In this document: in pieces, positions 6,297 through 38,000 of the stretch | How positions within the stretch are numbered: position 1 is the first letter of the stretch | How the letters are laid out: every line of letters begins with the position of its first letter | Translations under genes and position numbers: made by a program | IMG/VR virus record: IMGVR_UViG_3300022200_000085 | Span: 1-46,178 of that record | Direction: 5' to 3' (one strand) | Source: a virus | DNA: 46,178 nucleotides | The notes under the pieces: generated by a model | What the model was told of the DNA's origin: nothing | The model's input: the letters and a program-made list of their open reading frames with translations, nothing else | Databases searched by the model: none

Positions 6297-7613
6297 GTGG
6301 TCAATAGAGTGGTCATTATGTGGGGGAGTATGTTCATTGGCGACGAGTATGATATACCGTTGAGTGTCGCTGATGAATTTTCTAATGATGTGTTGAAAAG
6401 TTTAGCCCAACATCCATATTTTCAACCACAACAAGTACCTCTCAATACTTTAAATATAGTCAAAAGTGACAAAGACGCAGTATCACGATTTGCAAAAAAC
6501 GGTGATGGGTGGTTTGAAACTCAATATGGTACAGATGCAAATACAATTATTCGCATGTGTAGAAAAATGAGAAGGCACGATAAATTATTCAAATCCGAAT
6601 ATGATTCTATCATTAATGATATTCTTAAAGTAAAAGCGGCAGAAGTTGATGCTACGATTAAATCACTATCTTGGTCGGAAGGATTGGATGATGTTATACG
6701 CAATATTGGTTTGGATGACCGCTCTTTGAAATCTCTTCGTAAATTTGGTGAGGCTCGTAGTACGAGTTTGCAAAAAGCGTGTCACCAATATCTAAAAGCC
6801 ATAACTGTTTTACAACATTTAAATGAAAAACTTGATTGGGATGTTGATGACCAAAAGAATTGGGTAGATGCAAACGAAATGAAAAAGGATGCTCAAAAGA
6901 TGTGGAAAAATACACTACATCAAATTGATAGTCTTAACAAAACTGATGTAGCCGCTCTTGAATTTGCATCAAATATATTAAAATCCGAAGGTGCGTTAAG
7001 TAGTCGTGAAATTGTTCGTAGAGGATATGGTACACTTAATAATTCAATGACCGCCCAAAAAATGGGTGCTTTGCTTAAGATGTATGGTGAAGAAGTAGAT
7101 GTATTCAAAGGAAGTCAGCGAGGTACATTTGTTAAACAAGGGCCAAACGGATTAATCATTAAAGATATTTGGGCATATACGGCAGGCTTTGTAGATGCTG
7201 ATGGTAGTATATTTATTTCCGAGCGTGGCGACCCTCGTGTTACTATTGTAGCAAGTGGAGATAACGGAAAAGAACATTGTGAAGAACTTCAAAAGATGAT
7301 TGGATGTGGGCGATTGGTGTCCGACCAAAAATTGGCGAAAAATACCATCAAACCAGTTCATCGGCTTATTTTCTCATCAAAAGATGATATTCGTGATATA
7401 CTCAAAGGTATTATTCCACATTTAAAACTAAAATCACTACAGGCAAAGGCTGTTTTACATTACATAGATGAAAAAGATTCAATGCGTAAAAACGAACTAT
7501 ATCAATTGGTAACTTTCAATAATTGGAAAGACCATAAAAACAAAGCCACCTCTCTCTTGGACAAGTGGGGCGTTGATGTTGATACAGTAGGCGGATATGC
7601 GGAGGGATTGTGA
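6297..7613 (+). CDS. LAGLIDADG-type endonuclease-like protein with winged-helix-like region
   Basis: This 438-residue protein (from GTG 6297) carries one LAGLIDADG-type motif, AGFVDADGSI, at about residues 296-305, followed by the alternating beta/alpha pattern of one LAGLIDADG half-domain to about residue 395. Single-motif members normally act as homodimers. Residues about 215-285 look like a winged helix (LSSREIVRRGYGT...FKGSQRGTFVKQG), and the first 210 residues are helical and unrecognised. No intein splice residues flank the motif and the terminase and portal are both intact, so it is free-standing. The start is uncertain: GTG 6297, GTG 6309, ATG 6318 and ATG 6330 are all in frame and none has a convincing Shine-Dalgarno. 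Its place between terminase and portal suggests a packaging nuclease or small-terminase role rather than a homing gene (inference). Confidence 0.8.
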   Translation: MVNRVVIMWGSMFIGDEYDIPLSVADEFSNDVLKSLAQHPYFQPQQVPLNTLNIVKSDKDAVSRFAKNGDGWFETQYGTDANTIIRMCRKMRRHDKLFKSEYDSIINDILKVKAAEVDATIKSLSWSEGLDDVIRNIGLDDRSLKSLRKFGEARSTSLQKACHQYLKAITVLQHLNEKLDWDVDDQKNWVDANEMKKDAQKMWKNTLHQIDSLNKTDVAALEFASNILKSEGALSSREIVRRGYGTLNNSMTAQKMGALLKMYGEEVDVFKGSQRGTFVKQGPNGLIIKDIWAYTAGFVDADGSIFISERGDPRVTIVASGDNGKEHCEELQKMIGCGRLVSDQKLAKNTIKPVHRLIFSSKDDIRDILKGIIPHLKLKSLQAKAVLHYIDEKDSMRKNELYQLVTFNNWKDHKNKATSLLDKWGVDVDTVGGYAEGL

Positions 7614-9373
7614 TGGCAGAAGAACAAGGAAGAATTACACGCTTTTTATCCGCATTAGGAAGTCCATTTCGCCGTAAGGAAACACCTACACCCACTATGC
7701 CATTATGGACAAGTGGTATTCAAGAACCTGTGATGGCTCAAGGAATTACTATTCCTGCATTGTACGCTGTGAGTAATGAATCACTTATCCTTCGTACAGT
7801 TCTTGCAAAACTCCGACAAGAAATGTTTCGTCGTGGTTATTACTGGGAAAAAAGATTCATTCGCAAGTGTACTGTTTGTGATGAAGAATTTCAATCCGAA
7901 GTAGATACATGTGACGAATGCGGTGGCACAACACGCAAACCCGATATTGATGAATTAACTTACGCTAAGTGGTTATTAAAACAAGAAAACAGTATGGAAC
8001 AATCGTTTGTTCATGTACTTAATGAAATTGAAGGCGACCTAAATATTGTTGATGATGCGTTCCTTATACTGATAAAAGAATATTTTATTGACCCAAATTC
8101 AAAAGAAATTGCCTTTTATCGTGTAAAAGAAATAATGAGAGGCGACCCAATTTTTATGCGTATAGTAGCAGATAAGCGTGGAGTGCGTGGTGGTCGTTAC
8201 AAAATATGTTTGATACATCGTGATGAAGCAAAAACTCACGCAGAAGATGATACTTGTGAAACTTGCGGTGCTGAATTGCAAGAAGTTCATTATATCAACA
8301 TGGCAGGAAGTGGTAAGACACAATATTTTGTTGAAGGCGAAGTTCTTCATGTAAGCAAATATACACCATCAAAATTGTATGGCCGAAGTCCAGTCAATAC
8401 TATGTGGCGACAAGCCATGACGCTCACTGCAATGGATAATTATATCTATACTGCATATCAAAAGCGACGAATGCCAAAGGGTATTGTATCAGTGACAACT
8501 GATAACTTAGAGTCTATGAAGTCATTTTGGAAGGCTGTAGATGAAAAGATGGAGCGTGACCCTCACTATGTTCCAAAGGTAGGAATTGAATCCGCTACAG
8601 GGCGAGGTGGCGTTAATTGGGTTAAGTTCATGGACACTCTTGAAGAAATGCAATATATCGCAGTTCGTGATGAAATTCGTAACCGAATTGCGGCATTTTA
8701 TGGTGTTTCATCTGTCTTTATGGTAGATAGTGGAAAATCGGGTGGTCTTAATAATGAAGGTATGCAAATTCTTGTGACCAATCGTGCTGTAGAATACGGA
8801 CAAAAAGTGTACACCGAAGTATTGTTTCCTCGTTTGCTTAAACAACTTAACATAAGTGATTGGAAATTAACACTATATCCAAATGAAGAAGAAGATGAAA
8901 TTACTCGCCTACGCCGTGATGAACAAGAACTTAATGTTGCTCAACGCATGGCTCAACTTGGTTTTATGCCGGAACTTATAGAAGAATCTGCTAACCGTGA
9001 TATTCGTTTTACCTACAAACGGCCAGCACCACAACCACAGCAAGGTGGCGCACCTCCACCCGGAGGTATGCCACCCGGAGGTATGCCACCCGGAGGTATG
9101 CCACCCGGAGGTATGCCACCCGGAGGTATGCCGCCAATGATGGGTGCTGGCCCTCAATTACCACCACAATTGGCGCAACAAATTATGCCACCCCCACAAC
9201 CCGGTGGTCAAGGGGTAGGACTACGAAATCGTGGGCCAGCCGCACCCGAAAGGCGTACTACAATGGGAAGCGGTTCGCCTTTTTCTAATGTTCAACAAAG
9301 AGGGCCAGCCCCTACTCCACAGCAAACAGTTTCTAATGCGTTATTAGATGCGAGGCGACCTCGTGGACAGTAA
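7613..9373 (+). CDS. Portal protein with embedded zinc-binding insertions
   Basis: This 586-residue protein is the dodecameric ring at one capsid vertex through which DNA passes. The central and C-terminal core has portal-like features: GEVLHVSKYTPSKLYGRSPV, then a long helix region (TAMDNYIYTAYQKRRMPKG), and IAAFYGVSSVFMVDSGKSGG near residues 360-385. Two probable zinc sites are inserted: C86-x2-C89-x10-C100-x2-C103, and C199-x2-H202 with C215-x2-C218. The C-terminal ~110 residues are Pro/Gly/Gln-rich and include five GGMPP repeats. ATG 7613 is preferred over GTG 7610 because GGAGGG at 7601-7606 is ideally spaced from it; it overlaps the previous stop by one base. Identification rests on context with the terminase and capsid genes plus the core motifs. 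Confidence 0.9.
   Translation: MAEEQGRITRFLSALGSPFRRKETPTPTMPLWTSGIQEPVMAQGITIPALYAVSNESLILRTVLAKLRQEMFRRGYYWEKRFIRKCTVCDEEFQSEVDTCDECGGTTRKPDIDELTYAKWLLKQENSMEQSFVHVLNEIEGDLNIVDDAFLILIKEYFIDPNSKEIAFYRVKEIMRGDPIFMRIVADKRGVRGGRYKICLIHRDEAKTHAEDDTCETCGAELQEVHYINMAGSGKTQYFVEGEVLHVSKYTPSKLYGRSPVNTMWRQAMTLTAMDNYIYTAYQKRRMPKGIVSVTTDNLESMKSFWKAVDEKMERDPHYVPKVGIESATGRGGVNWVKFMDTLEEMQYIAVRDEIRNRIAAFYGVSSVFMVDSGKSGGLNNEGMQILVTNRAVEYGQKVYTEVLFPRLLKQLNISDWKLTLYPNEEEDEITRLRRDEQELNVAQRMAQLGFMPELIEESANRDIRFTYKRPAPQPQQGGAPPPGGMPPGGMPPGGMPPGGMPPGGMPPMMGAGPQLPPQLAQQIMPPPQPGGQGVGLRNRGPAAPERRTTMGSGSPFSNVQQRGPAPTPQQTVSNALLDARRPRGQ
9061..9135 (+). repeat. Five tandem 15-bp units encoding GGMPP in the portal tail
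   Basis: Five consecutive 15-bp units (CGGAGGTATGCCACC, the last with G for A) are in frame within the portal C-terminal region. The near-perfect DNA identity suggests recent expansion by slippage, so copy number may vary between close relatives. Each unit encodes a Gly-Gly-Met-Pro-Pro flexible linker. Confidence 0.95.
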
Positions 9374-9775: not shown

Positions 9776-10117
9776 ATGACAGAAATTTCAAATGCCGAAC
9801 ATTTAGTTGGTATTTTGATTAACAAAATGGAATCAATGGATAATAATCTTCTCCTTCTTAAAGCAGAAAATGATGCTTTAAAACAACTTATTAACAATCC
9901 ACAACGCCTTCTTCGTAAAATGGGTCTTGTACCAGTTTCAACACCTTTGGTAGATGATTTGAGTCTTGACCCATTTCGTGCTGATTTAGAAATGGGAGGC
10001 TCTTCACTTTTGAAAGCACAAAATAATCTTAATTCAATGTCTAATGAGGATATTCACAGCATGACATGGGAAGAAATTCACGAAATGGCAAATCAAGCAA
10101 AAGGTGATTCACAATGA
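9776..10117 (+). CDS. Coiled-coil protein sharing a C-terminal motif with the protease-scaffold
   Basis: This is a 113-residue protein. Residues 5-45 form a likely coiled coil (VGILINKMESMDNNLLLLKAEN). The middle is Pro/Leu/Asp-containing. Residues 89-106 (SNEDIHSMTWEEIHEMAN) align without gaps to the end of the protease-scaffold at 16468-17823 (STQDLANMGWDEVHALAH), with Ser, Asp, Met, Trp, Glu, His and Ala conserved in place. It starts after a GAGGTGATTGA leader and its stop overlaps the next start. The shared peptide and the coiled coil suggest a scaffold-like or portal-assembly protein that binds the same partner as the scaffold (inference). Confidence 0.82.
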   Translation: MTEISNAEHLVGILINKMESMDNNLLLLKAENDALKQLINNPQRLLRKMGLVPVSTPLVDDLSLDPFRADLEMGGSSLLKAQNNLNSMSNEDIHSMTWEEIHEMANQAKGDSQ

Positions 10118-10683
10118 AACCACGACCAGTTGAGAATGGATATTTAGCAAAGGCAATTGAACTTGAACAACGACTTGATGCTCTTGAAAAAGCCAAGTGT
10201 GATTGTGGCAAAGCACCCTGTGAATGTAAGTCATGTCCTAAGTGTGGTTCTAAAATGAACAAGATGGGATGCATGAAAATGGGTTGCGGTGGTAAAATGG
10301 AAAAAGCCGAACCCGGTTTTACACCCGAAAAAACAAGTAACACAAATCCTCACTTCTTGGCTGAATCGGGTGGACAAACTCGTAACGCATATTTTACTAC
10401 TAATGGTAAAACCATTGAGGCTGAGGATGTACCAAATAAGAAAACCACAAAAGAAGCAATTAATATGGACAAACTCTCATCTCGTTTGAATCCTCATATG
10501 GGAAGTGGAGTTGAGCGTGAAGATACTGCTGGTGGCTCTTCGGTAAAGAAGGCTAATCCACGAGCCGCTATGAGAGAAGGTGGCGGTACAATGTGTGGTA
10601 CATGTGGCGGTACTGAGCGTACAGGTTGCCTCCTTCACAATGGAATGGACATTCACGCTTGCGAAAGTTTTCAACCGCTATGA
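10114..10683 (+). CDS. Twelve-cysteine metal-binding-like protein of unknown function
   Basis: This is a 189-residue protein. After an N-terminal helix (residues 11-27) come eight cysteines in 30 residues (29, 31, 36, 38, 41, 44, 53, 58), arranged as CDC, CEC, CPKC and two later Cys with Met/Lys/Gly between them. The C-terminus has four more (161, 164, 172, 183) plus two His in CGTCGGTERTGC and HACE contexts. This suggests two separate zinc sites or a metallothionein-like cluster. The middle is polar and probably flexible. It overlaps the coiled-coil gene by 4 bases (ATGA) and precedes the 1909-residue gene by 15 bases, so it belongs to the head block. No family is recognised. Confidence 0.75.
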   Translation: MKPRPVENGYLAKAIELEQRLDALEKAKCDCGKAPCECKSCPKCGSKMNKMGCMKMGCGGKMEKAEPGFTPEKTSNTNPHFLAESGGQTRNAYFTTNGKTIEAEDVPNKKTTKEAINMDKLSSRLNPHMGSGVEREDTAGGSSVKKANPRAAMREGGGTMCGTCGGTERTGCLLHNGMDIHACESFQPL

Positions 10684-10698
10684 TAAGGCGGTGATTTA

Positions 10699-13600
10699 GT
10701 GAACGACCACTTCTATGTGTGTAGTAATGAACTACTCAAATCATTAGATGATGGTTTAGACCTTCGTACTGCGGCGGCTGAATATATTCTTGCATTTGAA
10801 AATCTTGAAGTTACACCAACTGAACCTATTTACAAGTCGTTAAAGGCGACAGCCGAATTAATCATTAAAGAAGAAGATGATGCTACACGATATGAAAGTG
10901 ATTATCATTTACCCGAAGGTATGGGATATTTATTTGCATTACAACACACTCATGGTGAACCTACTAACCATGTTTGGAAAGATGGATTACAATCTCCTGT
11001 AGGTGGAAGAGCCATAAATCCATTTACTGGTGAAAAAGAAAAAGTGAATACTCGTCATGCTGTTTGGCCGTATTACCAACCAAGCAGTGGCGCACATCCA
11101 TATCAAAGTCATCATTTTCCTTTTCATGAAGTAAATCATCCACTTCGCAGAATCAACAAAGTAACAAAGATGCCTCAATATGTTGAAATGTTGAAGAATC
11201 ATGTACTTGGTGGACATTCTTTAGAAGAAAAAGAAATGGAAAAGAAATTTTTTGATACGCTTGGAAAGAAGCATCCTTTGATAAATGGATTTTTACATGA
11301 TGGTAAAAAGATTCCAATTCTTGGTGATACAAGGCCATTTGGTACATTATTACATCATCAACACGATTTGTATGACCGTGATTATCGTCGTTGGAAAAAA
11401 GAAAATCCAAATCGTATTGAAGAATTATTAGCCGAAGGATTGTCAAACGAAGAAGCAAATCGTATAATGCGTGAAGAGCATTTTAATGACCGAGCAAATG
11501 ATTGGGAAGCCCCCGAAGATAATGCATATGCTTTTGGTGAAAATACTATGTCAAACCATGCAAAAAGGCTTGGTCATCTTGGTTACATGCTTGGTCTTGA
11601 ATGGTTTTCACCCGAAGAGCGTACTGCTATCATGAATCATATTGATGAAAAAGGACTTGATGGAGAAGAAAACATCATACTTCCAAATGGTGAACGCATT
11701 CCACCTGCTCGTTTGAAGTACAACGCATTGATGCGTATGACTCCCGAAATGAATTGGGCTATACGACCAATGACAATGGGTGGAAGAAATACTCATTATA
11801 ATTTAGAAGATAACGATAAAGATTATCAAATCGGTGAATCCGATATGTTTCATCAAAGGTCATTAGGTCGTCTTTCACATGAACCATTAGCAGAATTTGA
11901 TGACCAAAGTTTAGCATCAGTTATACTTGGTAAATTAAAAGATGTATATGGTGAAAGTAAAAAATTATCTGCATTACCAAGACTTAATATCCATAAAAAC
12001 CCGATGGATGAATTAGATTATGAACAATTAAGAGATGCATCTAAATTACACAACAAAAGTAAAGCCAAAGGTATTGACCGATTTCGTATGACAAAGGATG
12101 ACCTTATGTATTTAGCAGGGTATAATCCAAAAACTGGCGAATTAATGAGTGAACACCCACTGTACGGTAAGTTAGAAGAGCCAGTTATTTCTTCGGATAT
12201 GATAGATTATATTGAAAACATTGCTAAATTACAAGGTTCTCTTCACAGTCAAGCAAAAGATATTCGTAATCACCGAGCATTCTTTTCATCAGCATTTGGC
12301 CCACATCCCGAAGAAATAAATTTTCCTTACTGGAAAATAAGCAAAGAAGGAAACTACAGTTATGGGCCGGGTAAATTTTGGAGTACACCATTTCAAGGCA
12401 CAGGTGGTGCTGGTATCTCTTTGCCTACATACCATGAAATTCTTCATGCTACTCATGCGAATGATGAAGGAGTTTCACCATTCACTACATTACACAATGA
12501 AAATGAAAATTACATTCAACCAAGTGAGGATAACAAATCATTAGCCAATCATTTTATGCCATTGAAATCTCAAGAAATCGGTGAATTAAAAACACTTGAG
12601 GGAGGCTACAAACAATTTTCTCATCATAATAATGCCGCACTTTTACAAAATCTTCTTTCACCTGTTGGAACATCTAAGCCATATAAAACAAAAAAGGGTA
12701 CAGTAATTGAGGCTACAACCGATAAGAACAATTACACTGAACATAAATCTTCTTTATCACCTCAATATGAATATAAAATTAGGCATATGAGTGCAGGAGA
12801 CAGAAAAGAAAAATTCGGCTCTAATTTACAACCATTTTCATTTCCTCATACAGTCAATCCAACTTTAAACATAGGTGGTAAAACATCCTATGGTGCATCA
12901 CCATCCGATACGAATATGCACAAAAATGCACAAATGGCTCATTTTGTTGAAACTCTTGGTGGTCGTATGAACCATCTTAATACACCTGCTGAAAAATCCA
13001 TGATGAAAATTAATGATTTTCTAAGAGGTGATGAGGCATTTAGTGGTGGTCAAACCAAAGATGACTTTGTTGATTTTATGCGATGGGCTGACACTGGTTT
13101 AAGTTTCAATGCACTTAAGGGTCAAGTTTTGGATAATAAAAATTTGAATCACGCAGTAGCCGCTATTACTCAAGCATCAAAGATACTTGGTACGAAGAAT
13201 CCACAAGCGATATTAGATTACCTCTACCAAGAAGAAGATAAAGATGATTTAAATCAAAGACTTAAGGCTCGTGAACTTGGAAATTTAAATCACGATAAAT
13301 TAACCGAAGGTATCAATATTGTAATGGGTGATTTGAATGACCAAATCAAAGCAAGTAAAACAAAGCAAAAGACAAAAACTTCTACAGTAGCAGGGGAAAA
13401 AGATGCTGTATCACAAATCTTACAATTTGGAGGAAATATTCTTGCATCACAAGATGAAATTCAACTCTTAAATGAATTAGAAGAACTAAACCAAGAATTT
13501 GCTTTTGCAAAACCCGAAGAAAGAGAACAACTTATGGGTGAGATTCAACAAAAAGAAAATGAGTTAGGCAAAATCCAACAATCAATTGGAAGCAAATCAA

Positions 13601-16428
13601 AGAGTTCTAATTGGAAAATTGATGCAAGCCGTACAGAACAGTTATTCGGCGGTCATCGTAATACTGTTGCTGAGGTAGCAAGAGATATTATTTTGCCTAA
13701 ATATCTTGAACATGACCCCGATGCTTTCAATCCTAATGACCCACAAAAGTTCATTGATAACAACGCACAATTATTCCGTGATGCACAACGATATATTCTT
13801 TCAGTACCTCATTCAGTACACGGTATTAAATCAATTAACTATGGTACTCAAACAACTCTTAAGCCCACACAAGAGGCTGTAGCAAATCCATTTCATGCTA
13901 CGATTGCTCAACATTTAAGCAAAGATGGTAAAGTAATTGATGGAAACATGAGTGTAGATGAAGCACTCAAGATTTTAAACATAGAAAAAACTCCTGTAGC
14001 AAAAGAAAAAGCACGAGAATTGATTGAACTTTCACAAGAAATGAATACTCCATTGTTTGCATCTACTGTAAAAGACATTCTACAAAGTGGAAAAATTCCT
14101 AATATTGATGCTATTAATCTTAATCAATTTACTGAGGATTTATCTTCAAAACCCGAAGATGAACTTACAGAAGAAGATAAGTTCTATCGTGATGTACAAG
14201 ATGTAGGCTATCATGAAGCAATAAAAAATGCTCAATATACTACAGACGATAAAGCATGGGCATCGCACCATTCACATGCTATCCCTCGTTATTTCAATAT
14301 GAAACTAAATCCTCAACAATTTCAAAATTCAATGTTAAGTGCTGGTATTGGTATGGTTGATGGTGATATACATAATGCAAAAGGGTTTAGCAGTAAATCA
14401 AAAGCACGAAAAACAAACATGACAAAAAATTATCTTGATTCAATAGTTCATTTTGACCCAAGAGCATTAGAAGATGAATACGGAATTATGACTCCGGGTG
14501 AAGATATTGCTGAGTCTGCTGGTATGATGCAAACACCTGTTGGCTCACCTAATCCAAATAATGGAATGATTTTAGACAATTTTGATTCGGGTGCATGGCA
14601 TCATGGGTATGAAGCAACACCTACGCTTGGTGCTGAATTTGATAGTGAAGGAAATATTCTTGTTGGAAGCAATGAAGATACTGGGCTTTATCATAGTGTA
14701 CCGCTTGAATTATCAAGTATCGTGCATGGCAATGATACTGTGAATCAAGTTTGGAGTAACGCACCACCACCAACTTATCCCGACAATCCACATCAAAGTA
14801 TGAATTATGAAACGGCTGAAACGGCCAGTGAAGTACCCTATACTGTAGCGGCCAGCGAAATGACGATGCTTATTTCATCACTAATTGACCCCGATGTTTT
14901 ACTTGTAAAGAGTGATGATGCTAAATGGAGTCCTCCAATTCGCCCTATGCACCGTATCTTTGACATGAAAGACCTTGAACATCTGCGTGGGTTTAGTGGG
15001 TCATGGGTTGTAAGTAAATGGTATGATGGTCAAAGAATTGTTATTGTACGAAGCGATGATGAAATAATTGCGTATGATGAGAATGGGCGAAAGAAAGGAT
15101 TACGCAAGGCCACAAAAGAGGCTCTTGAAAAGATGAATGATAAGAACTACACACTTGATGCTATTCTCGGTGAGGATGAAGTGAATATCATTGACATTAT
15201 CAATTATGATGATAACAATGTAGGTGAAATGCAACTTTTTGAGCGATTGAAAATTCTTCGCTCGCAATTTGACAGCCAAGAACATGTTATTGTACCCGGC
15301 CCTCACGATACACGAATGACTGATGACGATGGACTTTTGGAAGCCGTTGAAAATTTGAAGAAAGAACATGATAATATCTTATTGAGAGATAATAAATCAA
15401 CTTACATGCGTGGTGAGCGCAGACATCCTAAGTGGATTTTGTATCGTGATAGCCGTGATTTCAATTTCATCATTCTTGACCGAAGAGGCAGTGGCCCATT
15501 TACATATCAACTTGGGGCTGGCCCTATACTTGATATTGAAGGGCTTGGAAATCGTGCAGTAAAATACGATGGTGAACACTACATGGATGTAGGTACTGCG
15601 TATAATCAACAAAAGGCATTCAAAGTTGGTGACATTGTTCGTGCATCTATTACGGGTATTTCAAAGAAAAATCGTAAAAATCGCCCAGTGTATAATGTAC
15701 AAGTCAAAGAAATTGAAAGTCAAGGTGAAGGTGAAGGTGCGGCCAGCACAGAATCTCTTGACCTCATGACAAAATCTTTCAGCCCTATTTTAATTCCACA
15801 TGATATTGAAATTCAAAATAATCAACTTCAAATTGTTTTGAAAGATGTTGATGTAGTAAAATACGAAATTGAAGATATGGAGGGTGTATGGTGCATTCAT
15901 TCTCCAAAGAGTACAATGGGAGATATGCTCAAATCGGACTATCCAGTAATACTGGCTGAAAGTCTTATGCCATTTTGGTCGGCTGTAGCACCCTTAATGA
16001 TGAAAGGATATGTTTCAAAAGAATCGGAACTTGATATGCCAAAGAAACCCACAAAAGAGCAAATGGAAGAAGAAAGTGCAGGTATTCTTGAAGAAGATGA
16101 TGAAGAGCGAATTCTCAAACCGAATCAAACAAAGAAAGCACTGCAACTTATTGAGCGTGCATTAGACAAAATTAGTAAAGAAAAATTGACATGGACAGGG
16201 CCAAAAGGTCTTGGAATTGATGTAGGAACACCTCAAGAATCACCACACGGCCCTACTAAATTAACTGATGAGGCTAACCTTCCCGATTACGATGGAGATA
16301 AAGTAAATACTGGTAAAAGAAAAGAAGAAGAAAAAGAGCGACTGAATCACATTAAGGTCACAACAGACGAGGGTGAAAATTACTCTATAGACTATGACAA
16401 TGACCAGCCAATCGCTTCTCGTCAATGA
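10699..16428 (+). CDS. 1909-residue virion-block protein with degenerate ATP-ligase/OB-fold domain
   Basis: This very large protein is encoded between portal and protease. Residues 1-1400 are not recognised: His/Asn/Glu-rich with many GG and PxxEE turns, and a Gln/Glu-rich coiled coil near 920-960. Residues about 1411-1674 follow the order of an ATP-dependent DNA ligase core: a PMHRIF lead-in, motif I region KWYDGQR (K1440), motif III region GEDEV (1491-1495) with a following IDII strand, motif IV region ILLRDN (1560-1565), motif V region KWILY (1578-1582), then an OB-fold-like FKVGDIVRASITGIS. The residue two before DG is Trp1441 rather than the nucleophilic Lys, motif IV Lys is Arg and the motif V second Lys is Tyr, so catalysis is doubtful. 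The last 200 residues are acidic and flexible. GTG start after GGCGGTGA (10687-10694). Role unknown; perhaps DNA handling inside the head. Confidence 0.85.
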   Translation: MNDHFYVCSNELLKSLDDGLDLRTAAAEYILAFENLEVTPTEPIYKSLKATAELIIKEEDDATRYESDYHLPEGMGYLFALQHTHGEPTNHVWKDGLQSPVGGRAINPFTGEKEKVNTRHAVWPYYQPSSGAHPYQSHHFPFHEVNHPLRRINKVTKMPQYVEMLKNHVLGGHSLEEKEMEKKFFDTLGKKHPLINGFLHDGKKIPILGDTRPFGTLLHHQHDLYDRDYRRWKKENPNRIEELLAEGLSNEEANRIMREEHFNDRANDWEAPEDNAYAFGENTMSNHAKRLGHLGYMLGLEWFSPEERTAIMNHIDEKGLDGEENIILPNGERIPPARLKYNALMRMTPEMNWAIRPMTMGGRNTHYNLEDNDKDYQIGESDMFHQRSLGRLSHEPLAEFDDQSLASVILGKLKDVYGESKKLSALPRLNIHKNPMDELDYEQLRDASKLHNKSKAKGIDRFRMTKDDLMYLAGYNPKTGELMSEHPLYGKLEEPVISSDMIDYIENIAKLQGSLHSQAKDIRNHRAFFSSAFGPHPEEINFPYWKISKEGNYSYGPGKFWSTPFQGTGGAGISLPTYHEILHATHANDEGVSPFTTLHNENENYIQPSEDNKSLANHFMPLKSQEIGELKTLEGGYKQFSHHNNAALLQNLLSPVGTSKPYKTKKGTVIEATTDKNNYTEHKSSLSPQYEYKIRHMSAGDRKEKFGSNLQPFSFPHTVNPTLNIGGKTSYGASPSDTNMHKNAQMAHFVETLGGRMNHLNTPAEKSMMKINDFLRGDEAFSGGQTKDDFVDFMRWADTGLSFNALKGQVLDNKNLNHAVAAITQASKILGTKNPQAILDYLYQEEDKDDLNQRLKARELGNLNHDKLTEGINIVMGDLNDQIKASKTKQKTKTSTVAGEKDAVSQILQFGGNILASQDEIQLLNELEELNQEFAFAKPEEREQLMGEIQQKENELGKIQQSIGSKSKSSNWKIDASRTEQLFGGHRNTVAEVARDIILPKYLEHDPDAFNPNDPQKFIDNNAQLFRDAQRYILSVPHSVHGIKSINYGTQTTLKPTQEAVANPFHATIAQHLSKDGKVIDGNMSVDEALKILNIEKTPVAKEKARELIELSQEMNTPLFASTVKDILQSGKIPNIDAINLNQFTEDLSSKPEDELTEEDKFYRDVQDVGYHEAIKNAQYTTDDKAWASHHSHAIPRYFNMKLNPQQFQNSMLSAGIGMVDGDIHNAKGFSSKSKARKTNMTKNYLDSIVHFDPRALEDEYGIMTPGEDIAESAGMMQTPVGSPNPNNGMILDNFDSGAWHHGYEATPTLGAEFDSEGNILVGSNEDTGLYHSVPLELSSIVHGNDTVNQVWSNAPPPTYPDNPHQSMNYETAETASEVPYTVAASEMTMLISSLIDPDVLLVKSDDAKWSPPIRPMHRIFDMKDLEHLRGFSGSWVVSKWYDGQRIVIVRSDDEIIAYDENGRKKGLRKATKEALEKMNDKNYTLDAILGEDEVNIIDIINYDDNNVGEMQLFERLKILRSQFDSQEHVIVPGPHDTRMTDDDGLLEAVENLKKEHDNILLRDNKSTYMRGERRHPKWILYRDSRDFNFIILDRRGSGPFTYQLGAGPILDIEGLGNRAVKYDGEHYMDVGTAYNQQKAFKVGDIVRASITGISKKNRKNRPVYNVQVKEIESQGEGEGAASTESLDLMTKSFSPILIPHDIEIQNNQLQIVLKDVDVVKYEIEDMEGVWCIHSPKSTMGDMLKSDYPVILAESLMPFWSAVAPLMMKGYVSKESELDMPKKPTKEQMEEESAGILEEDDEERILKPNQTKKALQLIERALDKISKEKLTWTGPKGLGIDVGTPQESPHGPTKLTDEANLPDYDGDKVNTGKRKEEEKERLNHIKVTTDEGENYSIDYDNDQPIASRQ
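14929..15720 (+). other. Ligase-like nucleotidyltransferase + OB-fold region (degenerate)
   Basis: This is the sub-domain of the 1909-residue protein that matches the motif order I, III, IIIa, IV, V and then an OB fold of ATP-dependent DNA ligases. The surrounding hydrophobic pattern is well kept (for example PKWILYRDSRDFNFIILDRR), while the key lysines are replaced or displaced. Confidence 0.65.
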
Positions 16429-16467: not shown

Positions 16468-17823
16468 ATGCTCACAGTGCAACGACCCAATGACGGTATT
16501 ACTCTTCTCAAGAGTAGTAACGACTTGGTTGTTGCTGGTTACGCATCGGTTGAACTTGTGGATAAGCAAGGCGACCTAATTACTCGTGGTGCTTTGCGAG
16601 ATGCCTTTGACGGCTTTATGAAGAGTGAGAAGTACCGAAATGTGCAACTGGCACACTCCAACATTCAAGTTGGTGAAGTGATTGACAGTTACATTGATAC
16701 AAATGGGCGAATGTGGAAATCCGAAGTGGATGACACCGGAATGTTCGTCGTAGTAAAACTCCGCAATGATATTGAGAAGGCTCGTGAAGTAGCCGCTGAA
16801 ATCCGCAAGGGCAACCTTCGTGGATTCTCCATTGGAGGCCAAGCATTCAAGAGAGTGCGAAAGTCCGATGTGGAAAAAGGCGACTACCAAGAGATTTCAA
16901 AAATGGAATTGCATGAGGTGACGATTTGTGAGAAGGGTATCAACCCCGAAGCACAATTTCGCATACTTAAGGAGGACACAAACATGACAGAAGAAAACAG
17001 TTTGAACGAGATTATGTCACGCCTTGAAGCACGATTGGATGCAATGGAGAAGGGGGAAATGCCTCCTGCTCTTAAAGAAGCCATGAAAGAAGAGCCAAAG
17101 GGTGCAGACAAAGAAGAAAAGAAAACCGAAAAAGGTGATGAAATGGAAATGGAAAAGAGCGAAGAGTACAGCGATGTCATCTCAGCAGAATACTTGAACT
17201 GGATGGAAAACACCCTCAAGTCTGCTGGTGTTGATATGGATGCCGCACGAAACCACTTTGATAACTTGGAAAAGGCTCAACTTGGTGGATTTGACAACCC
17301 CGACGCAGTGGATGGCGCAGATTACTTCGCCGGACAAGTTCGTGGTCGTGGACAAGAAATGGGTTCACCTTCAACTGGTGCAATCAACGCAGTGACCTCA
17401 AGCGGTGGTAAGACACCTGCTGGCGCACTCGGAGAAGCAAAGTTGTCCAAAGGCTACCTTAACGCAGAAAGTGTGAGCGACGCTGATATTGAAGCCGCTT
17501 ACGAAGTGTACAAAGCCGCCGCTTTGGAACAATCTTTCCGAACTGACCTTGAAACACAATTCGCAAACCGTTTTAACGGTGAAATGGAAGTTGCAAAGGC
17601 TGAGGCTGAGAAAGCCGCCTTTGACGCACGAGCACCTTTGTCGGAAATCGTGAAGTCCATTGAAGCACTATCCGAGCGAATTGACAATCTTGGAAGTGGC
17701 ATTGAATCTGCTACCATCCAAAAGTCATTCAGTAACATTGATGTTCCCTCTACGCAAGACTTGGCAAACATGGGTTGGGATGAAGTCCACGCCCTTGCCC
17801 ACCGAACATTGCGAGGGGAATAA
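16468..17823 (+). CDS. Prohead maturation protease (HK97 U35/S78 type) fused to scaffold-like domain
   Basis: This is a 451-residue protein. Residues 1-170 are the HK97-type assembly protease: a beta-rich start (VVAGYASVELVDKQGDLI), catalytic His63 in LAHSN, Ser121 in LRGFSIGG, and an acidic residue at Glu150 in LHEVTICEKGINPEA. Residues 170-451 are charged and helical, with an Asp/Glu/Lys-rich stretch and an Ala-rich coiled coil near 340-420, as expected for a scaffolding domain that guides capsid assembly and is then degraded. The last 24 residues carry the motif shared with the 113-residue protein (MGWDEVHALAH). Start at ATG 16468 follows GGAGA. Codons are visibly richer in C at third positions than in neighbouring genes upstream. 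The major capsid gene follows 24 bases later. Confidence 0.95.
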   Translation: MLTVQRPNDGITLLKSSNDLVVAGYASVELVDKQGDLITRGALRDAFDGFMKSEKYRNVQLAHSNIQVGEVIDSYIDTNGRMWKSEVDDTGMFVVVKLRNDIEKAREVAAEIRKGNLRGFSIGGQAFKRVRKSDVEKGDYQEISKMELHEVTICEKGINPEAQFRILKEDTNMTEENSLNEIMSRLEARLDAMEKGEMPPALKEAMKEEPKGADKEEKKTEKGDEMEMEKSEEYSDVISAEYLNWMENTLKSAGVDMDAARNHFDNLEKAQLGGFDNPDAVDGADYFAGQVRGRGQEMGSPSTGAINAVTSSGGKTPAGALGEAKLSKGYLNAESVSDADIEAAYEVYKAAALEQSFRTDLETQFANRFNGEMEVAKAEAEKAAFDARAPLSEIVKSIEALSERIDNLGSGIESATIQKSFSNIDVPSTQDLANMGWDEVHALAHRTLRGE

Positions 17824-17847: not shown

Positions 17848-18948
17848 ATGGCACGAGATTATATCCGAAATATTACAGACATGGAACGGTACTACTATGG
17901 CGCAGGTAACGCTATGGGCTACTCCTACTCCGGTAGCGAGTTGCTCAAGGCTGACGCACCAATGTTGTCCACAACTGCTGGTACATACCAAGCAATCTAT
18001 GGGCGCAAAGTTTGGTCACAATTGAACCAAGAGTTCAACGCATTCAGCATCCTACCAAAGCGACCGTGGGAACGCAGTGGATGGCGAGTTATTACTGCAC
18101 GCCCTTCCTTTACTGTTGGTGGCGGTGTTGCTGAGAACGCAACCCTTCCCGACACAACCAAACCAACCTTCCAACACATTGCCGCAAAACCAAAGACTGT
18201 TGTTCACACCTTTGACATGAGCGAAACCGCAATGTTCCTTTCCGACAAAGATGACGGACTTGGCGACATTCGTGCAGTGTTGAAAGAAGAAATGGGTAAG
18301 CACCACGCAGAACACATCAACAAGATGCTTACTACTGACAAAGCAACTGCGGCTGGTAACAACTTTGAATCCATTGACCGTGTAACTGTTGGTGCATCTG
18401 CTGGTACAGACGAGGACATTTACTCCATTGACCGAAGTGCAAACTCATGGTCACTTGCAGAACACAACCAAAACTCCGGTACAGACCGAAACCTTTCACT
18501 TGACCAACTTGACGACTTGTTCCAAAAGACATGGACTCGTGGTGGAAATCCAAAGGTTATCCTTACTGGTTACGACACTTTGATGCGCTTGCAACAACTC
18601 CTTCAAAGCCAACAGCGATTCATGGAAGAGAAGCGTGTTACGCCAACCTACAACGGTGTGAAGGGTGTTCCCGGTGTTGAGGCTGGATTTATCGTTGCTA
18701 CATACAACGGTGTTCCAATCATCCCATCAAAGGATGTTCAAACCGACACTTTGAGCCGTATGTATTTCCTTGACACTGACTACATGTACTTTAGCACAGC
18801 AATTCCAACCCAATACTTTGAGAGTGGTATTGAAACAGGCGACCCATTTGCAATCAACCGACTTGGACAAGAAGGTATGTACCGCACTATGGGTGAACTT
18901 TGGACTACTTTCTTTGGTGGACACGGTTCAATCCGTGACCTAAAGTGA
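17848..18948 (+). CDS. Major capsid protein, HK97 fold
   Basis: This 366-residue protein sits immediately after the protease, in the canonical HK97 order. The N-terminal region contains SGSELLKADAPMLSTTAGTY and then VWSQLNQEFNAFSILPKRPW, which resembles the N-arm and P-domain entry of archaeal and environmental HK97 capsid proteins. Later segments KVILTGYDTLMRLQQLL and GFIVATYNGVPIIPSKDV followed by SRMYFLDTDYMYF are typical of the A-domain, where the capsid subunit resembles phage P2/HK97-like proteins with short loops. Codon use shifts towards C-ending codons, consistent with high expression. The leader GAGGTGAAAAAAG is the strongest in the window. No long N-terminal delta domain is evident; the scaffold function is supplied by the protease fusion. 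Confidence 0.94.
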   Translation: MARDYIRNITDMERYYYGAGNAMGYSYSGSELLKADAPMLSTTAGTYQAIYGRKVWSQLNQEFNAFSILPKRPWERSGWRVITARPSFTVGGGVAENATLPDTTKPTFQHIAAKPKTVVHTFDMSETAMFLSDKDDGLGDIRAVLKEEMGKHHAEHINKMLTTDKATAAGNNFESIDRVTVGASAGTDEDIYSIDRSANSWSLAEHNQNSGTDRNLSLDQLDDLFQKTWTRGGNPKVILTGYDTLMRLQQLLQSQQRFMEEKRVTPTYNGVKGVPGVEAGFIVATYNGVPIIPSKDVQTDTLSRMYFLDTDYMYFSTAIPTQYFESGIETGDPFAINRLGQEGMYRTMGELWTTFFGGHGSIRDLK

Positions 18949-29036: not shown

Positions 29037-32000
29037 ATGGTTGCAATTGGTCGTAGTAGTCACGCTTTCTTCTTTGATGGCGTAAGCGATTCGGTCATTA
29101 TACCTCAAGGTCGCTTTACGAAAACAGGTGTTGCTGATTCTAATGGTACAAAAGTAATGACTCAAACCCTTCAAGGGCAAGGCGATATTGTTTCAATTAA
29201 TAGTAAAACAATTACAGATTTTGTAATTGAAACATGGGTCGTACCCGATTGTGGTGGTATAATTGCTCACCGTGAAGGGCAATTTACTCTTGAGATAGGC
29301 ACAGTAGATACACCCGGCCCTGCTGTATTTACAGTTTATGTTGAATCTAATGCTGGCCCATCAGTGTTCCGTTTAGCATCGGCATATGACACTGGTACAC
29401 GATGGGATGGGATTGTTTATCCTCAACAAAATTACGGGGGTATTCATGATTCATATAACCGATACGACACAGGTAATTATGGTGATGCTACAAATTTGAA
29501 TTTTAAGAATCGGCCACTATATCATGTTGTGGCTGGAATTACAAAGAGTCGTGTTTTCTTAGCCATCAATGGAGAAATCGTATCACAACAAGATATACCA
29601 CCCGAAACTCGTCTTGCACGCTCTACAGACCAAGTATATCTTGGTGGTAAAGGTGGACAATTTCGTGGGGCTGTAGAGGCTATTCACTTTTCAAATGAAT
29701 TTGATGAGAATATGCTTGTTCCATCTATGGCTGTAAAAGGTAAAACAACATCGGCTTTATTCCGTTTTGAAGAACCTATTGATGTTATTGAAGAAACATA
29801 CGAGTTCACTGCCTACGGCTCAAGTGGTGGTACAACAATCACAATTCCAACCACTGATGCTCAAGCATTAATTGCACGATTAACGGGTAAAGCCTACGAT
29901 TCAAGTAATCCAACAACTGATTTTACTGCTTCACCATACAGCATGGGTAACTACAAGGTTGTTGATTACTATACAAATCAAGGTACTCCAACAACTATTG
30001 CTGTAGCGCACACTCCGTATAATCTTCTTATCAATCCCGGTGCGATTAATCGTAACACACAGAAGCCTAATCAATCCCCACCCGAAAGGGTGCGACTTCA
30101 TAGCATCAATGGAAGCACTGGTGTCATGACTGTATCAAGTATTCATATTGACTTCATTAATGGTACAGGTGGCCTTCGTGGAGTGCTTCATTCACGAACT
30201 ACTGATGTAGATAATTACTTTGTAGTGGTCGGTGCTGACTTACTTATTGATAACGGTACAGGAAAACCATACCAACCACCTCATTATGGTACACAAATTT
30301 TTGACAAAACAGGACAGATGGTGCTTGATGAAAGCGACATAAATAATCATGGTTTCGTATATTCAAGCCGTATGGCAACTACTACAGACGACCCTAACAA
30401 TCCATTTGCTGTAGTTTGGCCTTCAAGCCTTGACACACTCTTCCAAGTTGGTCACAGTGGGCGACATACTTATTCCCATATCATCGGGCATGAGTATATG
30501 CGCCGCTATCCAAAACCTACTGAAATTACAATTGACCAGCAGGCTGATGGTTCAGCCGATATTGTACAGATGGCATACGATTCTAATACCCGTAACATTG
30601 ATGAAATGTTCACTATGAATTCATTAGTTGATTTTTACACTGAAACTTTGGAAGCACCGATTGCTCGGATTGAAAACTCATCCAGCGTTACAGCAGTGGT
30701 AGATAATGGGCTACCAGCCAGTGTCAAGGAAATGATTGCTATTGGTGGTACAAATTTCAAATATGCACCATTTATGCTTAAAGGGCCAGTACCCGAAGTT
30801 GGTGATATTAATGAGAATAACCGACTGTATCATCTTATTCCCGAAACAGAAAGCCGTATTGCACTGCTTCATGTACCCGACCTTAAGACTTCACATAACC
30901 TTGCGCCATTTGTTGAAATTCATTACAACGCTATTGATATGACTGGTGCAAGTATGGGTGTCGCAACACCAATGTTGATGGTAGAAAAGACTGTACCAGC
31001 AGGCTCGTTTGACTTAGGAAGCGGTACACGAGTGCTTGATGTTATCAATGCTGATATTGCTAATTGTACGCTGTATTCGCCCGGTGGTGTGATTTACCTT
31101 ACAAATGCAATTAGTGGCTACGGCTCGCTCATGCAAGAGTCGCACACACTCATTGGTGATAATACTGGTGGGCAAGAAAGTGAAACTGAGTTAGATTATA
31201 GCCGTACACCAGCCCTTTACACTCCTGTAGCCGATGTAAATGCCGAACCAGCCTCGCCACCTACCGCTATAGCCCGTTCACATAATTCGGGCGTTCATGA
31301 TTCTGTATATCACCGAGTTGTTATTGAATCGCTATCATCCAGCCAGTCCGATACAATACTTGACGAAGGTGCAGGCAAATCAACCCGCCAGCCTACAACT
31401 AATAAGAGTGCTACAGGTGAATTTGATATTGGGCCAACTACACATTCTTCTCGTGTTTTTGAAACATTTAACATCATTGACAATGTAATTATTACAGATG
31501 AAGCAGGCATTTTGGGCAAGATTTTCATTCAGCCTTCAAATAAATTAAGGAGTAATCAATTATCTTTGCTACGATATACCGAAGCAGGAGATATACCAAA
31601 TATTGCCAGCGTATTGTATTTGATGAGTCGTACTCGTATTCGTGGTATATCAAAGGATGAAAGCCCCGAAAGCAACATGAGTACAGTCATTATTACGGCT
31701 ACGGGCATCGCAGATTCCTTCGTGAATGAGAATGTATCAGTTATTGGTAGTGGTTCGCCCGACTCACACATAGTCAAAGAAATAGAGCCTAACTCACCTG
31801 TTGTTACAGTAACACTGGGAGGGGCTGGTCAAGGTGCTGTAAATACTAAACCAACATTTGACCCAAGCCCGTTAATGCGCCTTCCGGGTTCAACTCGCCG
31901 TAGTTGTGCTGTACAAGCAAGAAATGTTCACACGGCAACTACAGGTGCGTTACCCTACAGCATGAGTGTAAGCCCATTAAACAATGGCTCGCCCGATATG

Positions 32001-35000
32001 AAATCATGGGGTACAATCTGTTTTCCAAAGAAAGGGCGAATATATCTTGGTGATGGCGCAAGTGCTGAGTATGATGAAAAGACAGGTGCAGGATTTTATT
32101 TCTCACAAACAGCCACAGGTGTAGCAATTCAAACACGGAAATATTTAGACAGTGCAGGTACAGCCTACGATACATTCCATGAGTGGTGTAATGCTACTGG
32201 TATTATCAATCAATCATCAACTGGTACATATCTTACTTCTATTTACATTTACAATGATGGAGATTTTGATAATGATTCGTTAGCACAAGATGGAAGTACG
32301 CTCAATGACCGTTTGTTCCAATCTCTTGATACTGTAACACACGATTATCAACTTGGCACTCAATTTGCAAGCACTCGTGCAATGGTGGAAATCCCTGTAT
32401 TCCCTCAGCAGTTTTTTGACCATACTGAACTTGGTATTTTTCCCGGCCCGGATAACAGTATGAAACTGCATATTGATGCAACATATACAGCACATACATG
32501 GAATCCAACACCAGTAGGTCGTCGTGCTGATGATATTGATGCGGCTGATAAGTCTAAAAATTCAGCCTATACCTATACAATTAACAACAAAGAACATGTA
32601 AGTTCAGCAACAATTACCAAGTTTGATGTTGTTGGTAATTTTTTCCATGTTTATGTTTCACATCCAAAAATGTTCCCCGATGCTACTACAACAGGTACAT
32701 TTGGTGGTATTGAAGATATACGCCGTGTACGCCGTGTATTTGTCAATACTGATGATTGGGCATTTTACATCAACAATCCAGCAGTAGATGGATATTTGAA
32801 TATTCCACACAATAGTACGGGCGGGTTTCACGAAGGTATATCGGATAAATTTGCTTTTAGCGCAGTAGTTGGCTCTAAGATATATCTTATAGATTCATTT
32901 AGAAATGAAACCCTTCTTCCTCTTTCTTCGGATAGTGAACTTCCATCTTCGGATTACGAAGGCCGTTCACCGTATTATTATGACATTGGAAGCATGATGA
33001 CACAAGGTGGTAATCTTGACTACGGATTGCGTCAATATGTTTCAGCCGTTGAGTTCAAGGCTGGCCCATTGGCTAATCCTCATGCCCCTCGCACTATTAC
33101 AAAGCGTGCAAAATCAAAGATTGTACAAGCAGATGATATTAGTGGTGGTTTAGTTAATCTTATTTTAGAAGATTCAACGCTATTTCCCGATGCGCCATTT
33201 ACACGAGATACAAGTAATTCACCAGTAAATGAACAAGGAGATGTGATGATTATTGGTGAAATATTACTTGATACACCAATTGAAGTTCATTACTATGGAA
33301 AGTTAGATTCAAACGGTGGAAAAAATTCAATTCAAATTCAAATACCAAGTAATATAACATACAATGTAGATGAATTCCTTAACACTGATTTTATTTTAAA
33401 GCGTGCAGGGCATGTTCTAAATGGACTTGATAATCCCGAAGATATGACAACTCAAGAACTTCAAACGGCTGTTTTCTTTGCTACAGGAAACGAAGAATGG
33501 ACATATGTTAATACTGATAGCGCAGGCACAACTACTACAATTGAAATTACGAATGCTAACAAACGGTTTGCACACGCAAATACAATAGGATTGAATATTC
33601 GTAAAGGTGACAAATTATTTCGTGATGATGGAACTGGAACTGATATTGAATATATTGGTGAGGTGTTAAAGGTTGAATCAAATGAAATTACGGGTGGAAA
33701 TACAGAAGTAACACTTACCGCAAATAATCTTGTGGCTATTAGTGCTTCGGATAAAGTAGGTATTGGGAGTGCAAGTATTGTACAAGATGACCATGATGCT
33801 GTATTAAATCGTAGTTGGCTTTACCCATATGCACAAGGTGGTTTGCGAAACGGTGACACCGTATGGATGAATATGACAATGAATAATCCACATGCTATTG
33901 AAGGGTTATTCGCAAAAAGTCGTGGAGTGTTTAATGACGCATTAGTATGGAAAGGATTCAATGGTGGTCAAGGCCAATTAGCCGAGCGACCAAGAGATTC
34001 AATTCCACTTGAAAATTTCTTGATTGGAAATTCATGTCTTGAAACAGCACAAAATTTTGCACAACATGTCAATAAAACCATTGAAATGAATTACGAATCA
34101 ATGGGTCTTGATGCAACGCAAGCACCTACAATAGCGTACATTGACCCGTATCTTTCAACAGATGGTCACGCTCGTGTCTTGTTATATGATGTAGCACATG
34201 ACCGTGAATTTATTGCATTCCATGATTTACACATGCAAGTTCAATCCAGTGCGGCAACACCTTCAATTGGTTACACACGCAACATTCCATATGACGGTGG
34301 CGACCTTAAACTTGACAAATACCTTATCAGTACAAACGGTGGTGCGCCACATTACTTTACTACACAAATAGATGTAGCAAATGGTTTCCCAACAGAAAAT
34401 CGTTACATGCGCTCAACTCAACAATCTAAATTTATTGAAAGTGCGTATGCACATAATATTCCAAATAATATTTCTCAAGATTTACTTGGTAGCACACTTA
34501 TTGATACACAAATAAAATACACACTTGAAAATCCATTCACTCTTGGTAATAATCCTACAAGGCGTGGTGCTGGTCACGGACACTTTGTACACACTGGTTT
34601 GTATCATGAAGGCACATCTAACACACATACCGTTGGTGACAACACCCTTCCACGAGTTCAACAAGCCGTATCATCAGTATATTACGCCAACCAAGCACAT
34701 AATTTAATTCGTAAAGAAAAAGAGGGCGACAATTTAATTTCAGCATTAAAGAAATACAGGGCAGACCAAGACCCTAATTTGTACAGTTTGAAAGATTCAA
34801 GCACGCTTTTTGATACACCCGATGGTACTCGTGTCATTTCAGCATATCTTTGTTTAAAGGGTAAAAGAAATATCACTCTTGACTTAGCCGACCATGAAGA
34901 AAGCCGACTTCAACATTTGAAACATTGGAGTGAAATGGATTTCGTGCGTCGTATGTCTATTGACTTAGGTGAAGTTGGTGTTAAGGAAGGAGTAACAGAT

Positions 35001-38000
35001 ATTGAAGCGGCGGCACGAGAAATTGTCCGACTTATCAATCAAGGTGGCGCACCAAATGGTCGTACACATGCTCGCAGACCATCACAGCAATATCCGGGTG
35101 AAAGTGAAAGACTTGACCTTACACGAATTGGTGTACGCCAAGATATTGTTAATGAAAACAAAGACCCTACATCAGCACATATCAATGCTGATTTTGCCGC
35201 TACAGGTTCAACTTATGACCCTGCACCGTTTTGGTATGGTGACATTGCATTTGATTCTCATGATAGAGGCTCACATATGGGATATGTACGAGCGCATATT
35301 GGGCGAGTTGTTGAGGACATTAATGGAAATGAAGGGTTCTCAATCATTATCCATTCAACAATACCCGGTGCTTCGGGTCGTAATTTCTGCGTTTGGCTTG
35401 ATAATAGTAAAGGTCAATCTTCATATCAACCTCAATTTTTAATTGGTCATGGTGGCCGATTCCGAAACTTTTGGGCGCAACCCGATGAAATCATGGGTGA
35501 AAATATGCACCCTGCACCAATGCCGCTTAACAAAGATGGGCGACCATTTGCACCCGTTACCACTTTACGAGAATACATCGTACAAGAAGAAACAAGTGAA
35601 CAATTTACCAGTAATCATGATATTGCACCAAGAACTGATGATACAACAAATCCAATTGGGCGAAACATTTCAGCCCATCTTGGCGGTATTTCACATAACA
35701 GTGTCAATGAAGAATCGTTTGAAACTCAAAGTCCTTCTACTGCTCTTGTTAAGGGATTAAGAGCAGGTAAGGAGGCTGTAGCACGAATTAATTTTGGTGG
35801 GCTTGTTGAAGCAGGTGTACCCGGTTTTTCACCAATTGCTGGAAAATATGGGCTTGGTCGTATTGGTGATATAGAATTTAACAAGCGATATGGTGAAACT
35901 ACTCTATACGGTGCTACTTCACCTACAGCCAATAATTCATATTCAACTCATATTAATCCTACTGAATTAGCACAAGATAAAATTGGTGATGCGACATTAT
36001 ACGGATTGCGTTTCACCGACCATCGTGGTACAGGGTATGGAATACGCTACATATATCGTGAAATGGATGCACCGTATGCAAATGAATTGACAACTATTCC
36101 ATCTACAATTGATGAAGAAATTTGTATTTATTTTGATGACCGTGATGCAGGACAAGGTGGATTTACGATTGGGGCGCACATGATTGGTGCTGGTGATGCT
36201 ACAGGTCGTCTTACACCTCAAACTGATATGACTGAGGCATTGTGGCGTGGTAATCAATGGAGAGGGATGTATGCACCAAGTATAGGAGTTGATTCTCAAA
36301 TTAAATGGGATAGTTCAAATGATACGATTACAGTACAACTTGAAAATCCATTCCATACAGCCACCACATCTTTTGATAATGTTGCTGATATACTTGGTTA
36401 TCTTGGTTTTCCAAAAGAAAACGGTGTTATACAAATTACCGACCCTCTTTATGATGCAGGTTTAACAGTAAAAGGTTCACTTGGAAATACTGTATCTTAT
36501 GAAAGCCGAACACAAAATAGTGCAACTGGTACACATGTATTTTATGGAGTGAGAGGTGCATCATTTGCTATTTCCCATTATCTTAGCAGTTTTGGGGCGG
36601 CGGCTACGGCGGCTACTTCTCAAACATTACCTGCAACATCTAACAATATAATTCGTGGATTAATTTCACCACGCCTTAACATGACGACTTTAATTACTGA
36701 TGAATTATTAGCCACTGTTACTGCCGCCGCTATCAATTTAGATAATCCAAATGTGATTGAAGGTGTATCGTTTAATTGTCGTGATATGTATGCGCCCGAT
36801 GGCCGAAAATATTCGGAATGGGGTATATCGGAAGATGCAATTAAAATCCGAGCGCATAATCCTCAGCGTGGCGCACGACCACTTTCAAAGATGTTTAGTG
36901 CTAAGGTATATCGTGATTTAGGTATCGCCGCACCCCATTTAGAATATGGTGAATATCAAAAATTGAGTAAGTCTGCCAGTGGAAATTGGACAGTATCAAA
37001 CGGAGGCGTGACTGTAAATAAACCGTATAGTGATGAGGATATTGATGATAATCACAAGCATCTTGGATGTGGATATATCCCAAATACTGTTTTACAAATT
37101 CGTACAAAGGCTCGTGGTTATCACGCAAATACTCCAACTCCAATACTTGTTGATTCATACAATGACCCAGTACCAACAAAACGCTGGCGAAATAATTTGA
37201 AGGGTATTCGTTTTACAGGAAAGAGTGGCGACCACATTACACCAGCCCTTGATAATACGGCTGTAATCTATAATAAATGGGATGGTTCAAACAGTATTTT
37301 TGAATTAGCCAATTCTGTTGCGGCACTATTAATCCCCGCTGGTGTAGAAAGTGCTACTTTATCAGTAAGTGGTACAAATAGAGATAGGTTACTTTCTTTT
37401 GGAGATAAAAAGACTATATTTCACGGTACACTCAAACAAGCATTAGGCACACCAAAGCAAAATCCAGCAGTAGCATTAAAACGATTACAAATTTTTATTC
37501 AAGAAGCAAATGAGGCTTGGCGTGGTGAATATCAAGCAGGTTCAACATTAACCAATAATGGATTATTAATGATTCATAATGATGGTCATTTTAGCGGTAT
37601 TCGTTTGTACGGTAGTATTGAAAGCGAGCCAATTACTTATTTCAAGGGTGGACATGACAGTAATGACCATAGCGTACCGTTATACTTTGGTGGTGGATTT
37701 AGTGGTGTCGTACTGGATGTAAATGATGGGTCAAAGAATGATTACTCTTCATTTTACACGCATCCGTATTCAACAGGCCCAACTGGTACGGCTGGTATTC
37801 AAAATGCAAATGAAATCAGCACAGCATATGCTATGGTAGATTGTAATGCATTACTTGCTTTCTTCCCCGCCACACCATTCCTTAACCAACATCGGGGTAC
37901 AATTAATTCACCAGCATTTAATCAAGACAGCCTGTTGTCGCCCGATTTAGATTTAAACACACTTGTTGATTACTCAAGTAATCCAGCACATGTATCAGCA

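Follow-up and report, generated by a model that had tools for sequence, protein, structure and literature searches.

Why two genes of one virus should encode proteins that end in nearly the same short peptide, with no likeness elsewhere, is the question raised by a 46,178-base virus record, analysed here over its whole length (the window) and representing a fragment of a tailed archaeal virus. The two genes are 6.3 kb apart in a block encoding, in order, the portal (7610-9373, + strand; phrog_18178, 4.7e-64), a 115-aa protein, a 113-aa protein (9776-10117, +), a 189-aa protein (10114-10683), a 1909-aa protein (10699-16428), a 451-aa protein in which a prohead serine protease (S78) is fused to a scaffold (16468-17823, +), and the major capsid protein (MCP; 17848-18948, +; PF17236 5.6e-13, phrog_24667). 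The 451-aa product is assigned to the S78 protease-scaffold class by its matches to PF04586 (3e-10) and to the PHROG head maturation protease family, and by the MCP gene being the next one along. The 113-aa protein, which has no Pfam or PHROG family, is encoded one gene beyond the portal, with the 115-aa gene between.

Other members of the block have features of their own. The 189-aa protein contains a dense cysteine cluster (CDCGKAPCECKSCPKCGSKMNKMGCMKMGCGGKM) that looks like a zinc-binding one, and the 1909-aa protein has a weak, sub-threshold match to an ATP-dependent DNA-ligase domain near its C-terminus; a ligase-like gene occupies the same position, after the small core proteins and ahead of the protease, in the related loci L144, L209 and L306. 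L144 and L206 are loci on one contig of a distant virus. There the ligase frame (L144, 10655-12376) appears to contain an intein-like insert, and the MCP frame (L206, 7709-8422) stops early with an HNH-like protein after it, so that an intein and an intron are possible. The right third of the window is filled by a single ORF of 5566 aa (29037-45737).

The nearest named phages for the MCP and the portal are the haloviruses HVTV-1 and HCTV-5. Searching genome contigs with the MCP returned a single host-linked relative, a member of lineage 2 (see below) in a Poseidoniales single-cell genome, and magroviruses sit in that same MCP clade (PMC8651126). Kinship of the MCP and portal, together with the Poseidoniales-linked relative and the placement of magroviruses, thus suggests that the window virus is magrovirus-like.

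A sequence-only reading had noted the peptide and proposed that it is a docking tag and cargo signal, and rechecking of the ORFs and peptide positions confirmed where both copies lie. The first, SNEDIHSMTWEEIHEMAN, occupies residues 89-106 of the 113-aa protein (10040-10093, +) with its tryptophan at W98; the second, STQDLANMGWDEVHALAH, occupies residues 428-445 of the protease-scaffold (17749-17802, +) with W437. Both are C-terminal as that reading had it, ending 7 and 6 residues respectively before the stop codons. The likeness is also as reported: the two 18-mers have 7/18 identities and an ungapped BLOSUM62 score of 51, and unrelated 18-mers in all ORFs of the window score no higher than 24 against the peptide of the 113-aa protein and 21 against that of the protease. 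The core common to both tails is M-x-W-x-x-[IV]-H-x-[LMI]-[AV]. Comparing the small protein with the scaffold by hhalign gives a probability of 92.7 when the tails are included and 0.4 when they are removed, and full homology of the two proteins is rejected on the latter value.

We gathered 80 related contigs through the MCP. In lineage 1, to which the window belongs, the motif ends all 63 of the small proteins (63/63) and all 80 of the protease-scaffolds (80/80), and its M, W, H and A never or hardly ever vary. Those loci that have no small-protein gene also do not have its upstream neighbours, and their contigs therefore stop short of it. An HMM built from the tail of the 113-aa protein alone finds the protease tails (best E 1.3e-7, median 6e-5 over 8504 ORFs), and the best other ORF in the 81 loci has E = 34. 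We also scanned the whole viral collection at the DNA level with the pattern M-x-W-[DE]-[DE]-[IVM]-H-x-x-A, obtaining at least 85 matches. Among the 85 listed, 84 are C-termini of the two families as recognised by motif-free HMMs (58 protease, 26 small protein), and the 85th belongs to L144, a distant virus, where it lies in the small protein.

Loss of the motif from homologues and commonness by chance had both been named as observations that would speak against the sequence-only reading; both were looked for and neither refuted it, since the lineage 1 homologues keep the motif throughout and the scan matches and the tail HMM leave no room for a common chance pattern. An explanation by chance likeness, or by a generic helix-cap sequence, gains something from lineage 2, the one group where the likeness is marginal. 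It is refuted for lineages 1 and 3 and for L144, as nothing outside these C-termini scores and the tails of lineage 3 have diverged in coordination (see below), and we regard it as having practically no chance of being right.

The motif is present on both proteins in two further lineages, with MCPs approximately 37-43% identical, and more weakly in a fourth. One example is L144, with a portal 30% and an MCP 42-43% identical; its small protein, encoded behind the portal, ends in SNEELLKMSWEEVHKLAQLAKEESEE, and the protease (L144/L206), encoded elsewhere on the contig directly before the MCP gene, ends in TTPWIEVHKIAKNFRPY. A second is lineage 3 (MCP 37% and portal 45% identical to those of the window), reached through a second pattern scan with W-x-E-[IVM]-H-K. 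Both copies are present here, with 59 viruses having both genes in reach; the small protein, mostly 74-93 residues long, ends in MDWSDIHKMV or near it, and the protease-scaffold in MDW[NS]DIHKM[AV]. Lineage 2 was found through the Poseidoniales single-cell contig, and keeps the tryptophan in both tails with a glutamate at W+4 in both (80/81 and 60/60), although neither tail's HMM convincingly retrieves the other. No third tail-bearing protein was found in lineages 1, 2 or 3.

An informative arrangement is seen in L313, whose MCP is 45% identical to that of L206. The protease gene is further upstream, and a separate 256-aa protein encoded immediately before the MCP ends in LTMQELSKMTWREVEDYVAKMRGE, with the related tail MTWREVE; a homologue of the 113-aa protein was not seen in this locus. 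The stand-alone scaffold is thus still tailed, and the tail therefore goes with the scaffold and not with the protease.

The haloviruses HVTV-1, HCTV-1 and HCTV-5 do not have the motif, which we count against the docking reading, and no other protein has a strong peptide in common with the protease tails of HVTV-1, HCTV-1, vir519 and vir335. The C-terminus of vir519 (FEKAGKMTTEEIERQFGGE) is reminiscent of the motif, with T in place of W. We note that the MCPs of HVTV-1 and HCTV-1 (L082, L083) have about 75 extra N-terminal residues relative to the window MCP, and that the docking tail is absent from these viruses; a swap between MCP-fused and separate scaffold contacts is possible.

The tail core (positions -2 to +7 around W) was compared between the two proteins and across lineages. 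Within lineage 3 the small-protein and protease tails have an identity of 0.75, whereas a tail of lineage 1 and its orthologue in lineage 3 have an identity of only 0.40 (protease) or 0.52 (small protein). When columns are permuted with W fixed, the observed likeness is reached in 0/400 permutations in lineage 1 and 0/400 in lineage 3. The corresponding figure in lineage 2 is 18/400, a pairing weakly above chance that we count against the reading, and for the same reason a tight covariation in that lineage (H to E at W+4 in both tails) was rejected. Covariation of the tails within lineages is slight, with phylogeny left in, and only column -1 stands out, which is also counted against; the H-type viruses show a small same-virus excess, again with phylogeny left in. 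Gene conversion between the tails found no support: agreement of third codon positions at the shared residues within a virus (0.58, 0.41) does not exceed that between viruses (0.53, 0.42), which points to selection on the protein, and not to DNA copying, as what keeps the tails alike. From these sequence comparisons, the shared tail is genuine, conserved, under selection and confined to two families, and its two copies diverge in coordination across lineages.

The form of the small protein bears on what the tag might do. AF2 predicts a helix at residues 3-40 (pLDDT 89-97; coiled coil), a flexible linker at about 70-88 (pLDDT <50), and tail helices at 90-94 and 98-110; PDB matches to the N-terminal part are chiefly coiled coils. 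Across 62 homologues from the lineages no column is invariant except G50 and W98, and the tail ranks 5 of 103 sequence windows for conservation. That the tail is the best-conserved part of each protein fails for the protease, where the enzyme domain is equally conserved. The gene is close behind the portal in all lineages, an arrangement like that of T4 gp67/gp68. Cargo signal is thus not the best term, since the 113-aa protein has the look of another core or scaffold component and not of a passive cargo. A docking tag on two head-assembly proteins is well supported, because both copies have the same C-terminal place, the same predicted hook and coordinated divergence, and the proteins have no similarity elsewhere.

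The hook is seen in the AF2 models of both tails, with helices at W-8 to W-4 and W to W+12, at moderate to low confidence, and the two tails are predicted to form the same two-helix structure. We think it fairly likely that this hook, carried by two unrelated prohead-core proteins, engages a single site on a common partner, for which the inner face of the MCP is the best candidate. The MCP is favoured by analogy, and because the tailed stand-alone scaffold of L313 adjoins the MCP gene; on these grounds it is probably the docking partner. A tethered AF2 model of the protease tail and the MCP, in which the stops between the in-frame genes were read through, gave a pLDDT of 38 with the MCP unfolded, and was uninformative on docking.

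Two other partners are to be weighed against the MCP. The scaffold and the small protein might both dock at one site on the portal ring and so be recruited to nucleate the prohead, which would accord with the position of the small-protein gene behind the portal and with P22, where scaffold hooks are also found between portal and coat (PMC12005531). However, the scaffold gene adjoins the MCP gene in every lineage, including where the scaffold stands alone in L313, the known C-terminal scaffold hooks of P22 and the herpesviruses bind capsid protein, and scaffold copies in known systems outnumber the 12 portal subunits; we consider the portal an unlikely partner. The contact could instead be internal to the core, homo- or heterotypic, with the tail binding the scaffold/protease and the small protein entering by way of the scaffold. 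One scaffold site could take two copies of one motif, and in T4 proteins reach the core through capsid-targeting sequences by a mechanism that is not known (PMC9958956). Yet the scaffold belongs to the more variable regions (mean column entropy 0.80, versus 0.52 for the tail) while the tail is fixed, and scaffold C-terminal tails classically touch the shell, making this reading similarly improbable.

A further tailed product is likely in lineages 1 and 3, judging from start-site sequences. An internal ATG at position 16984, at the boundary between protease and scaffold, is conserved and would begin a probable nested scaffold-only gene (16984-17823, +; from Met173, 279 aa) with the same tail. 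In lineage 1 a GGAGG-type (Shine-Dalgarno) site precedes this ATG in 29 of 31 unique sequences, and the glutamate codon is GAG in 23/26, compared with 25% elsewhere. In lineage 3 there are AGGTGA-type sites in 46/47, with the valine codon being GTG in 21/22 against a background of 10%. The same test in lineage 2 gave only 4/34.

Both window tails are preceded by a tetrapeptide of the form Phi-x-K-[SAG], a candidate prohead-protease cleavage consensus. These putative sites are LLKA (10007-10018, +; 39/40 homologues) in the small protein and IQKS (17716-17727, +; 40/40) in the protease-scaffold, each with its lysine 18 residues before the tail tryptophan. The pattern precedes the tail in 65/65 of the P1 and 68/70 of the P3 proteases, in 45/50 of the S1 small proteins and in 7/51 of S3 (the lineage 3 small proteins). 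It is also concentrated in the 113-, 115- and 189-aa proteins, the scaffold and the MCP (residues 32-35), and is nearly absent from tail-side genes. The equal spacing, and the presence of the site in the MCP and other core proteins with little in the tail genes, raise the idea that the shared tail is mainly a recognition site marking two substrates for the protease. We find this very hard to sustain, as the shared motif does not include the site, S3 rarely has it, the MCP carries it but is tailless, and the background in the lysine-rich scaffold is 40-47%.

Returning to docking on the MCP, a plausible sequence of events would be as follows. The second hook helix would begin at the invariant tryptophan, with the histidine at W+4, and the scaffold would be tied to the shell through the hook during assembly, leading the shell around the core. 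The small protein, oligomerising through its coiled coil, would sit in the same core layer and act as a second scaffold or a portal-to-shell linker, and the protease-free scaffold from the conserved internal start would bring the same hook. Release of the hook by proteolysis at the Phi-x-K-[SAG] site may be added, although this site is not universal. We tentatively extend this to a modular tag on at least three products competing for one capsid site, in which initiation, core layering or shell size would depend on the ratio of small protein to scaffold, with selection through the shared partner keeping the copies alike, a scheme that is possible but on balance doubtful.

The motif is unreported in the open-access literature searched, and a survey of magroviruses (PMC10160649) does not mention scaffolds. 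There is little experimental knowledge of head building in these uncultured and very abundant archaeal viruses of the ocean. The conserved ten-residue plug would provide a testable docking rule of one peptide and one binding site, suggest what a family of small unannotated proteins is likely to do, and open a possible route for loading foreign proteins into such capsids. It would also be a clean case of unrelated proteins held alike by a presumed common partner.

Comparisons with known systems place this tail among scaffold docking tails. In T4 the genes for gp67 and gp68 are between the portal and the protease, and these proteins are not known to have a tail in common with gp22. The small core protein described here is likewise encoded between portal and protease, and PHROG and Pfam searches detected no homology of it to gp67/gp68. 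Both T4 proteins belong to the prohead core (PMC9958956). The T4 proteins IPI, IPII and IPIII enter the prohead by a common short capsid-targeting peptide (PMC9958956, PMC9026906), and the resemblance is that several core proteins have one short peptide in common. The T4 peptide, of about 10 aa, stands at the N-terminus, is removed by cleavage and does not occur on other core proteins (PMC9958956). In contrast, the peptide here is C-terminal and is on the scaffold itself.

Phage P22 lacks a protease and has a single scaffold gene. The scaffold, gp8, has a C-terminal helix-turn-helix hook that binds coat (PMC12005531), to which the two-helix hook predicted here would correspond. The P22 hook is described as presenting Arg/Lys to acidic coat residues, whereas the residues conserved here, in acidic surroundings, are Met, Trp, Ile/Val, His and Ala, with a conserved K at W+5 only in the tails of lineage 3 and L144.

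The closest parallel is herpesvirus UL26/UL26.5, where a protease-scaffold and a scaffold have a common C-terminal tail that binds the MCP (PMC12474303); here the MCP is presumed to be the partner by analogy. In both systems, which belong to the realm Duplodnaviria, the protease is N-terminal to the scaffold and the last ~25 residues are common to more than one core protein, and a nested scaffold-only start is probable here; if it is real, three products would have one tail, in the manner of UL26 and UL26.5. The herpesvirus genes are nested and in frame, however, and here a second, non-nested and unrelated gene has its own copy. The tail is thus a variation on the scaffold docking tails already known, and stands out in being carried and kept alike by two unrelated, non-nested genes, and provides a prokaryotic-virus parallel to the shared tail of UL26/UL26.5, but in separate genes.
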